A DNA stretch of 64,000 bases from Marichromatium purpuratum 984 (GTDB lineage: Bacteria; Pseudomonadota; Gammaproteobacteria; Chromatiales; Chromatiaceae): positions 62,001 through 126,000 of the forward strand of contig NZ_CP007031.1 in NCBI RefSeq assembly GCF_000224005.2, given 5' to 3'. The translations under genes were made by a program, and so were the position numbers. The notes under the pieces are model-generated. The model saw nothing but the letters and a program-made list of their open reading frames with translations. It was not told the DNA's origin and searched no databases. Shown here piece by piece: positions 33,867 through 37,981 of this stretch; the first letter of the stretch is position 1; each line of letters opens with the position of its first letter.

Positions 33867-35120
33867 TCAGCTGGCACGACGCGTGGCGGTGAACTCGGGA
33901 TAGGCCTCGAGACCGCACTCGCCGAGGTCGACGCCGGCGTATTCCTCCTCCTCGCTGACGCGAAGGCCCATCACCAGACGGATCAGCAGCCAGGCTAGCA
34001 GCGAGGTGGTGAACACCCAGCCGAGGATGGCGCCGAGTCCGATCGCCTGGGCGGCGAAGCTGGCACCGGCGTTGGTGATTGGCACTGCCATCAGCCCCCA
34101 CATGCCGACCACGCCGTGCACCGAGATGGCGCCGACCGGGTCGTCGATGCGCAGTCGGTCGAGGGTGACGATGGAGAACACCACCAGCACCCCGCCGACA
34201 CCGCCGATCAGGGTGGCGAACAGCGGCGAGGGGGTGAGCGGCTCGGCGGTGATCGCCACCAGCCCGGCCAGGGCGCCGTTGAGGGCCATAGTGAGATCGG
34301 CCTTGCCGAACAGCAGCCGGGCGGTGATCAGCCCGAGCAGGGTGCCGCCGGCGGCGGCCATGTTGGTGTTGACGAAGATCGCCGCCACCGCATTGGTGTT
34401 GTCGAACCCGGTGAGCGCGAGCTGGGAGCCGCCGTTGAAGCCGAACCAGCCGAGCCAGAGCACGAAGGTGCCGAGCGTGGCCAGCGGCAGGTTGGCGCCG
34501 GGGATGGCGTTGATCGAGCCGTCCTTGCCGTACTTGCCGCGGCGCGCGCCGAGCAGCAGCACGCCGGCGAGCGCCGCGGCGGCGCCGCACAGGTGCACCA
34601 GGCCGGAGCCGGCGAAGTCGTTGAAACCGACCGCCTCGAGCCAGCCGCCGCCCCACTTCCAGTAGCCCTGGATGGGGTAGATCACGGCGGTCATGACGGT
34701 GGCAAAGAGCAGGAAGGACCACAGTTTCATGCGCTCGGCCACCGCGCCCGAGACGATCGACATGGCGGTGGCGACGAACACCACCTGGAAGAAGAAGTCG
34801 GACATGCGGGCGTGGTTGAGGCCCTCGGCGGTGATGGTCGCGGCGTCGTGGTCACCACCGAACAGGAAACCCCAGTCGAGACCGGGGACGAAGCCGTTGC
34901 CCGCCGTCGGGTACATGAGGTCGTAGCCGATCACCATGTAGGTGGTGCTGGCGATGGCGAACAGGGCGATGTTCTTGGTGAGGATCTCGGCGGTGTTCTT
35001 GGCGCGGACCAGCCCGGCCTCGAGCATGGCGAAACCGGCGGCCATCCACATCACCAGGGCGCCGGTGACGAGGAAGTAGAAGGTGTCCAGGGCATAGACG
35101 AGCTGCGTGGTGGATTCCAC
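33867..35120 (-). CDS. ammonium transporter Amt (second copy)
   Basis: A trimeric inner-membrane ammonium channel. The 417-residue protein has about 11 helices and both conserved pore histidines (GLVHLCGA, equivalent to AmtB His168; ISVHGVVGMWG, equivalent to His318), plus the GWFGFNGGSQL segment. It starts with a GTG at 35120, supported by GGAGG 8 bases upstream; no ATG fits. Unlike the upstream copy it has no cleavable signal peptide, and the sequence is of a different Amt clade. It lies 92 bases after the first amt gene, before a shared terminator. Confidence 0.92.
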   Translation of the reverse strand: MESTTQLVYALDTFYFLVTGALVMWMAAGFAMLEAGLVRAKNTAEILTKNIALFAIASTTYMVIGYDLMYPTAGNGFVPGLDWGFLFGGDHDAATITAEGLNHARMSDFFFQVVFVATAMSIVSGAVAERMKLWSFLLFATVMTAVIYPIQGYWKWGGGWLEAVGFNDFAGSGLVHLCGAAAALAGVLLLGARRGKYGKDGSINAIPGANLPLATLGTFVLWLGWFGFNGGSQLALTGFDNTNAVAAIFVNTNMAAAGGTLLGLITARLLFGKADLTMALNGALAGLVAITAEPLTPSPLFATLIGGVGGVLVVFSIVTLDRLRIDDPVGAISVHGVVGMWGLMAVPITNAGASFAAQAIGLGAILGWVFTTSLLAWLLIRLVMGLRVSEEEEYAGVDLGECGLEAYPEFTATRRAS

Positions 35121-35212
35121 GGAAGGGACCTCCGAATCGGACTGGGCGCGACGCCCGGGCGCCGCGCAGGGAGCGGGGCGAGCGGCCGGAGCCGCTCGCC
35201 GTGGTGGCGGGG

Positions 35213-36529
35213 TCAGAGGATATAGCCGCGCTCGTCGTGCAGCGAGAGGTCGAGACCCTCGGTCTCCTGCTCCTCGTCGACGCGCAGCCCGATGGTGGCC
35301 TTGAGTCCGAGCAGCAGCAGCAGGCTGACGATACCGCCGTAGACCAGGGTGGCGATCACCGAGACGAACTGGATCCACACCTGGGCGCCGATGCCGTCGA
35401 CGCCGTCGGCCAGGCCCGCGCCGCCGAGCGCCGGGGCGGCGAACACGCCGGTGAGCAGGGCACCGACGATACCGGCGACGCCGTGCACGCCCCAGACGTC
35501 GAGCGAGTCGTCATAGCCGAGCCAGTGCTTGACCTTGGTCGAGGCGATGAAGGCGAAGATCGCGCCGCTGAAGCCGATGACGATCGCGCCCATCGGGCCG
35601 GCGGTGCCCGAGGCCGGGGTGATGGCCACCAGACCGGCGACCGCGCCGGTGGCGATGCCGAGCACCGAGGGTTTGCCGTGGCTGATCCACTCGGCGAACA
35701 TCCAGGTCAGCGCCGCGGTGGCGGTGGCCAGCTGGGTGACGGTGAGCGCCATTGCCGCGGTGGAGTCGGCGGCGAGTTCGGAGCCGGCGTTGAAGCCGAA
35801 CCAGCCGACCCACAGCATCGCCGCGCCCATCACCGTCAGCCCGAGGTTGTGCGGCGGCATCGCCGTGGTCGGGTAGCCCTTGCGCTTGCCGAGCACGATG
35901 GCGGCCACCAGCGCGGCGATACCGGCATTGATGTGCACCACGGTGCCGCCGGCGAAGTCGAGCGCGCCCATCTCGCCGATCCAGCCGCCACCCCAGACCC
36001 AGTGGGCGATGGGGATGTAGACCAGGGTCAGCCACAGTGCCATGAAGATCAGCATCGCCGAGAACTTCATGCGTTCGGCGAAGGCGCCGACCATCAGCGC
36101 CGGGGTGATGATGGCGAAGGTCATCTGGAAGGTCATGAACAGCGACTCGGGGATGCTCCCGGAGAGGGTGTCGACCTGCAGTCCGGCGAGGAACAGCCGC
36201 TCGAGGCCGCCGATCCAGGCGTTGTTGGCACCGCCGTCGGTGAACGCCAGGCTGTAGCCGTAGACGGCCCACAAGAGACTCATCAGACAGGCGATGGCGA
36301 AGCACTGCATCAGCACCGAGAGCACGTTCTTGGCACGCACCAGACCGGCGTAGAACAGCGACAGGCCGGGCAGGGTCATGAACAGCACCAGCGCGGTGGC
36401 AGTCAGCATCCAGGCGGTGTCGCCGGCGCTTAGCGCGGCGTCGTCCTGGCCCCAGGCGAGCAGGGGCGAGAGCAGCAGCGCGACCAGCAGGGGCGCGCGC
36501 AGGGTCGTCGAATGTCGCATCGGATTCAC
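35213..36529 (-). CDS. amtB: ammonium transporter AmtB (first copy)
   Basis: A trimeric ammonium channel controlled by GlnK. The 438-residue precursor has a cleavable signal peptide (LRAPLLVALLLSPLLAWGQ), 11 helices, the twin histidines (GTVVHINAG; WGVHGVAGIVG) and the GWFGFNAGSEL segment. A GTG at 36529 has AGGAG 8 bases upstream, while the ATG at 36520 would be 17 bases away, so the GTG is preferred. It follows glnK by 26 bases, the classical glnK-amtB pair. Confidence 0.95.
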   Translation of the reverse strand: MNPMRHSTTLRAPLLVALLLSPLLAWGQDDAALSAGDTAWMLTATALVLFMTLPGLSLFYAGLVRAKNVLSVLMQCFAIACLMSLLWAVYGYSLAFTDGGANNAWIGGLERLFLAGLQVDTLSGSIPESLFMTFQMTFAIITPALMVGAFAERMKFSAMLIFMALWLTLVYIPIAHWVWGGGWIGEMGALDFAGGTVVHINAGIAALVAAIVLGKRKGYPTTAMPPHNLGLTVMGAAMLWVGWFGFNAGSELAADSTAAMALTVTQLATATAALTWMFAEWISHGKPSVLGIATGAVAGLVAITPASGTAGPMGAIVIGFSGAIFAFIASTKVKHWLGYDDSLDVWGVHGVAGIVGALLTGVFAAPALGGAGLADGVDGIGAQVWIQFVSVIATLVYGGIVSLLLLLGLKATIGLRVDEEQETEGLDLSLHDERGYIL

Positions 36530-36555
36530 CGTTACATCTCCTAGCACTGCCTGGC

Positions 36556-37690
<1,135 letters not shown>

Positions 37691-37798
37691 TGACTGATAC
37701 CTCTGTTTGCTTGCGTTGGGTCGTGGCGGTTGCCGTCCATGTGCGCCGCAGTCGGCTGTTGGGTCGAGCCGGGGACGCGAAAACGTTCAGTGGACATC

Positions 37799-37814
37799 AG
37801 CACATCGCGTGCCA
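37799..37814 (-). promoter_or_regulatory. sigma-54 promoter of torF-glnK-amtB-amt
   Basis: On the minus strand TGGCACG-N4-GTGCT fits the -24/-12 consensus with one mismatch in the -12 box; GG and GC are correctly spaced. The start point would be near 37788, about 100 bases before the porin ATG. Confidence 0.8.
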
Positions 37815-37854
37815 GTTGCCGTTTGAGGCGTGTTGGAGACGCTTTTCGGCATCA

Positions 37855-37871
37855 TGTGCCAAAGTGGCAAC
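37855..37871 (-). promoter_or_regulatory. possible second NtrC site
   Basis: TGTGCC-N5-GGCAAC is a weaker copy of the NtrC palindrome with the same 5-base spacer, 24 bases closer to the promoter than the strong site. Confidence 0.45.
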
Positions 37872-37878
37872 AGAAGAG

Positions 37879-37895
37879 TGCACCGGATTGGTGCC
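37879..37895 (-). promoter_or_regulatory. NtrC binding site
   Basis: TGCACC-N5-GGTGCC matches 11 of 12 fixed positions of the NtrC consensus TGCACC-N5-GGTGCA and is centred about 98 bases upstream of the predicted start, the usual place for an enhancer. Confidence 0.82.
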
Positions 37896-37981
37896 GGTTG
37901 GGTGTCGGCGGTCAGATTAGCGCACCAAAAGAAGGCGGCACAGCACCGTCGATCGGCGCAGACGGCACCGTGCGACACACC

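Follow-up and report, generated by a model that had tools for sequence, protein, structure and literature searches.

Why does an operon for ammonium uptake begin with the gene of an outer-membrane porin? The question is raised by a 64,000-nucleotide stretch of the genome of Marichromatium purpuratum 984 (contig NZ_CP007031.1, positions 62,001 to 126,000; hereafter the window), where a porin gene, glnK, amtB and a second amt gene follow each other in this order on the minus strand. TIGR02001 porins, to which the first gene product belongs, are encoded by about half of the genomes sampled from the phylum (151 of 299) and are annotated without a substrate.

The original prediction, that a TorF-family porin heads glnK and two amt genes, was borne out by profile matches. 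The porin gene (36968..37690) codes for a 240 aa 'TorF family putative porin', which scored 164.7 bits against TIGR02001 (cut-off 47.15) and 127.7 bits against Pfam PF09694 (Gcw_chp; cut-off 24), and is the sole TIGR02001 copy in the 3.78 Mb genome. The second gene, glnK (36556..36894), encodes a P-II signal protein. The family match of the ammonium transporter gene amtB (35213..36559) starts from residue 26, and its true start is perhaps inside the ORF. The second amt (33867..35096) matched TIGR03644, the 'marine subtype', with 649 bits; the mechanically called ORF extends from 33867 to 35378, the match begins at residue 95, and the true start is uncertain.

The promoter of the operon

Control of the operon by NtrC and sigma-54 had been proposed on the basis of a near-perfect NtrC site, a weaker second site at the same pitch and a -24/-12 element. 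The main NtrC-like site, TGCACCGGATTGGTGCC (GGCACCAATCCGGTGCA on the minus strand), lies at 37879..37895 and matches TGCACC-N5-GGTGCA in 11 of 12 positions. The sigma-54 element TGGCACGCGATGTGCT, also on the minus strand (37814 to 37799), has 11/12 matches as well. A second site is present but weak: it is either a doubtful NtrC-like site overlapping the main one (37866..37882, minus strand, 9/12) or a half-site farther upstream (37921..37937, minus strand, 7/12), 42 bp from the main site.

Taken singly, each promoter element is unremarkable in the GC-rich window. Matches to the NtrC-like site with up to two mismatches numbered eight in the window, with 4.2 expected, so the site is not significant on its own; the exact sequence TGCACC-N5-GGTGC is present at 10 places in the 3.78 Mb genome, the window site included. 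Two-mismatch matches to the -24/-12 element numbered 15, with 9.8 expected. What is significant is the pair. The NtrC-like site and the -24/-12 element stand in the correct order, 81 bp apart, with a combined score of 22/24. In a more stringent scan, not one of 4,046 control windows taken from the same set of loci came to 20/24. A scan of the region for sigma-70 consensus promoters found none.

The main site is kept in both loci of the same genus (L016 and L031). The upstream half-site looks unchanged in these two loci and occupies the position held by the main site in most relatives; its spacing to the -24 element, 123 bp, is within the commonest range of the relatives (120-125).

The genome also encodes the two proteins that such a promoter calls for, a full-length NtrC (746 bits, over the cut-off) and RpoN (481 bits). 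On the 5' side of the ntrC match, approximately 0.9 kb away from it, there is another exact NtrC-like site (G000:C1:3748832-3748817, minus strand), which is likely to be an NtrC target too. Because the sequence is joined by a precedent in Herbaspirillum seropedicae (discussed below), we regard NtrC/sigma-54 control of the window operon as nearly certain. Under nitrogen starvation, phosphorylated NtrC would bind upstream of 37814 and activate the sigma-54 polymerase, and a single transcript would then provide the outer-membrane porin, GlnK, AmtB and the second Amt.

Linkage of the porin to glnK in other genomes

Of 77 genomes from the window's family (Chromatiaceae), 58 contained TIGR02001. In 49 of the 65 family loci the porin gene immediately preceded glnK in the same orientation; 13 of the others were not glnK-linked and three were at contig ends. 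Behind glnK the relatives carry an amt of the TIGR03644 type, one of the amtB type or, in some cases, both. In one family member (L012, G006:C1) the porin gene has a single in-frame TGA stop. The NtrC and sigma-54 pair reached at least 18/24 in 44 of the 47 linked family loci that had enough upstream sequence to be scored, compared with 1.0% of 1,091 control windows. When linked loci from both sets, family and phylum, were pooled (n = 58), the spacings between NtrC site and promoter clustered with a helical periodicity near 10.75 bp, with a vector length of 0.53 against less than 0.40 for 99.9% of random sets.

In the phylum 130 loci were examined, the 30 best fetched automatically and 100 other listed places; this set is not a random sample, because the remaining listed matches and the unlisted weaker ones were left out. 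The porin gene was directly upstream of glnK in 18 of the 130 loci, in eight families and with gaps of 14-72 bp. In six further loci, all outside the window's class, it followed amt in the same orientation. The adjacency to glnK or amt is recurrent, in the phylum as in the family. When Burkholderiales-type porins were used to query a named collection, glnK adjoined the porin in 69 of 80 loci. A chemoreceptor (MCP)-like gene was observed upstream of the porin in nine loci (L119, L128, L144, L190, L216, L225, L011, L013 and L017), in most of them on the same strand.

The double motif scored 18/24 or higher in 12 of the 18 glnK-linked phylum loci, compared with about 1% of control windows. Ahead of glnK in loci where the porin follows amt, two of four scored 0 and two scored 17-18, so NtrC/sigma-54 control of this arrangement is not supported. 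On a porin tree built with FastTree, the quickest method, glnK linkage was patchy, with 19 changes. With four contig-end loci set aside, linkage and motif were compared on 10 phylogenetically independent pairs: about seven went the same way and none the opposite way (sign test, p about 0.016).

Patchiness of this kind could mean that the porin gene is a passenger of a promoter that serves glnK-amt, with no tie between the porin and ammonium, and the NtrC-driven glnK-amtB operon of Escherichia coli does function without a porin gene. A mere passenger is at odds with the position of the gene, which in all eight linked families of the phylum is directly upstream of glnK at a short distance, with the glnK-amt-porin order in another class, and with the double motif on unlinked copies described next. 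We consider this reading very unlikely.

Among the 103 phylum loci without a glnK or amt neighbour, 13 had a double motif of at least 18, compared with 0.74% of 2,169 control windows, and eight had one of at least 19, compared with 0.09%. Five unlinked porins with an NtrC and sigma-54 pair (L107, L150, L152, L175 and L219) are located between genes which we take, from our own reading of the neighbour sequences, to be rpe/trpS-like and dam-like; these may be stand-alone nitrogen-regulated porins. Taken together, the linkage, the promoter and the NtrC-like promoters on some unlinked copies support a nitrogen role for the glnK-linked branch, and to this extent the nitrogen-related function originally suggested for TorF-type porins is supported.

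Promoters on unlinked copies would also be expected if the porin served nitrogen in organic form (amino acids, amines, urea), or was of broad specificity, and was induced by NtrC together with other scavenging genes; the linkage to amt would then reflect shared regulation, not a shared substrate. Some neighbourhoods agree with this. They come from plasmid records: in Azoarcus KH32C the porin is next to betA and agmatinase, and in Pseudoalteromonas it comes after a betaine/choline cluster. In Aquabacterium olei pTB101 (L332, 5908-8161) it adjoins an ammonium transporter gene but no glnK, and genes for dimethylamine monooxygenase and for a sigma-54-dependent regulator lie beside them. Several porins are placed in the NtrC regulon of Burkholderia cenocepacia in the accessible text of PMC5491218. 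What speaks against an organic-nitrogen or broad porin is the recurrence of the family inside kdp operons, where the inner-membrane substrate is K+ and the NtrC signature is absent. We hold it to be rather unlikely.

Porins in kdp operons and the possible substrate

Potassium-ATPase (kdp) operons contained or bordered on a TIGR02001 porin gene in at least 11 loci of 10 genomes and seven families. Adjacency was defined as a porin within about 4 kb of kdpB in the same 299 genomes; kdpB was present in 107 of these, 56 of which also hold TIGR02001 (93 matches). Random placement in a genome assumed to be 4.5 Mb would give about 0.17-0.2 such loci. The adjacency count and the totals of 56 and 93 come from listed coordinates compared by eye, and the adjacency count covers only TIGR02001 matches with listed coordinates, weaker ones being left out. 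Also left out were G190 and G324, where porin and kdpB are 11 kb (on one contig) and 17 kb from each other and did not qualify as adjacent, and L186, which has a weak histidine-kinase match.

The porin gene was always on the same strand as the kdp genes and occupied five positions: ABC-porin-DE, AB-porin-C-DE, ACB-porin-DE, porin-A... and BCDE-porin. In L372 kdpE precedes kdpD. Among the neighbours, KdpC of L319 and KdpB of L321 were confirmed by NCBIfam; KdpD and KdpE of L319, and KdpD of L321, were identified as best matches. Other records added seven kdp-linked loci to the 11. In the named collection five of 80 loci were kdp-linked, including those of Roseateles cellulosilyticus and Massilia phyllostachyos; the porin of Cupriavidus sp. 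KK10 is in a kdp context, and Sphingomonas parapaucimobilis has the annotated order TorF-kdpF-kdpA-kdpB. The kdp-linked loci noted were L138, L141, L176, L187, L207, L223, L226, L228, L269 (Roseateles), L271, L278, L298, L308, L328, L370, L372, L373 and L374.

None of the eight kdp-linked phylum porins examined had the NtrC/sigma-54 pair (8/8 scored 0). Because members recur in kdp operons without an NtrC signature, 'nitrogen' looks too narrow for the family as a whole. The window's own genome gave no match in a kdpB profile search.

We asked what kind of protein could be shared by these operons. An AlphaFold2 model of the window porin, built on 39 sequences, has 12 strands (pLDDT 77.6, pTM 0.73). 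The best fold matches were small beta-barrels, among them OmpG (Z 14.4), KdgM (4pr7; Z 14.2) and NanC (Z 12.7), with CymA and autotransporter barrels also among the top matches. A search for solved relatives by sequence returned none, the best match (E 0.013) being ribosomal S9, a chance hit. Residues E87, D89, E123 and the R46-G47-Q50 motif are highly conserved whether the porin adjoins amt, kdp or neither; this fits one shared mechanism, and the residues may line the pore. The window porin is very acidic, with a pI of about 4.05. Overall acidity was considered as a mark of cation selectivity and rejected, the median pI of amt-linked porins being 5.6 in the phylum against 4.05 in the window's family.

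It is probable that the protein is an outer-membrane channel. It could instead be an envelope or sensing protein that is needed under starvation and conducts no solute, as the periplasmic location given by its authors to the H. seropedicae protein NlmA, found in membrane extracts, might suggest (PMC3023670, accessible part). The 12-strand model, with porins among its top fold matches, and the amt and kdp neighbours, which are uptake systems, leave this reading only a slight chance.

K+ and NH4+ are of nearly equal ion size, and the Amt and Kdp systems alike scavenge monovalent cations with high affinity. Since TIGR02001 porins have joined operons of both inner-membrane uptake systems, recurrently, a channel for small cations is the likeliest reading; the cationic-amine genes next to some members count in its favour as well. 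The porin would be a small barrel that lets scarce small cations, in this operon NH4+, cross the outer membrane more readily and so keeps that membrane from cutting off the supply of the Amt transporters, whose affinity is in the micromolar range; a benefit at low ammonium would follow. Other members would be built into kdp operons for K+, or stand beside choline or methylamine genes, and the TIGR02001/TorF/NlmA family in general would provide outer-membrane channels for small cations.

We lean towards this explanation as a whole, a starvation-induced small-cation porin co-expressed with glnK-amt, by a narrow preference. That its substrates are small cations (NH4+, K+), as the operon partners suggest, we judge to be evenly balanced. 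More tentatively, TIGR02001/TorF proteins may be small monovalent cation channels repeatedly recruited into a starvation operon with the matching inner-membrane system: with Amt for NH4+ under NtrC/sigma-54, with Kdp for K+ in operons with kdpD and kdpE, and with amine or choline systems.

Several observations run against the small-cation reading. In most of the phylum loci, 98 of 130, the porin adjoins neither amt nor kdp; no shared neighbour stood out when 146 neighbour ORFs of these loci were compared with Pfam, the commonest family being short-chain dehydrogenases with a count of eight. Some neighbours are off-theme, such as heavy-metal or metal efflux genes, electron-transfer flavoproteins, an ABC transporter and flagellar genes; ABC transporter, electron-transfer flavoprotein and metal efflux genes do not suggest small monovalent cations. 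E. coli, used as a control genome, has kdpB and no TIGR02001 match. Both NH4+ and K+ can cross the outer membrane through general porins, and the need for a special cation channel is not obvious.

If the small-cation reading is true, high-affinity scavenging of ammonium and potassium would have its outer-membrane half in the TIGR02001/TorF porins. The conserved NtrC promoter and the recurrent glnK-amt and kdp operons point to a specific, testable class of substrates, NH4+, K+ and small amines, and they raise the question whether the outer membrane limits ammonium or potassium scavenging at micromolar levels.

Comparison with known systems

The promoter layout is like that of the enterobacterial glnK-amtB operons, in which the NtrC enhancer is roughly 100 bp upstream of the sigma-54 -24/-12 element and a second site lies upstream; these operons lack a porin gene, whereas the window operon has one. 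The small monomeric porins KdgM, NanC and OmpG transport acidic sugars or have broad substrates. Their barrel fold may be like that modelled for the TIGR02001 porin (Z 12.7-14.2 for NanC and KdgM, 14.4 for OmpG), and no sequence relation was found; a shared fold says nothing about the substrate.

The PVP family of TCDB (1.B.71), as described in the accessible part of PMC4827864, is alike in its Gcw_chp domain, its size of about 247 aa and its 12 predicted strands, and is called poorly characterized there. SO4694 of Shewanella oneidensis is named TorF, 'TMAO reductase system outer membrane porin' (PMC5955497, accessible part); the likeness lies in the family name, the role being TMAO respiration and not nitrogen assimilation.

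The closest counterpart is the nlmA-glnK-amtB operon of H. seropedicae. According to the accessible part of PMC3023670 (see also its references 15 and 16), this operon, described in 2006/2011, is NtrC-dependent and is 21-fold up under nitrogen limitation. Like the window porin gene, nlmA precedes glnK-amtB, and its membrane-associated product has no assigned function; the authors give NlmA no channel role, and neither a porin role nor a potassium link is proposed in that part of the paper. The H. seropedicae operon has one amt, the window operon two. In a proxy genome for H. seropedicae the letters of the published primer GlnKdelR were found without a mismatch, their end falling on glnK base 107 as it does in the paper, and a TIGR02001 gene (202 bits) was immediately upstream of glnK; the second primer was unmatched, so this genome, though a close proxy, falls short of proof. 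NlmA very likely belongs to TIGR02001.

The window operon, in which a TIGR02001 gene immediately precedes glnK and amtB in the same orientation, is of the nlmA-glnK-amtB type, and because of this precedent its arrangement and regulation were already known as a kind. A literature search, with most subscription journals outside its scope, found no report of a TorF-kdp link or of a porin-glnK-amtB link beyond nlmA. The finding in the window is real and conserved, the nitrogen operon type itself was known previously, and what is new in this analysis is that TIGR02001 porins sit inside kdp operons too.
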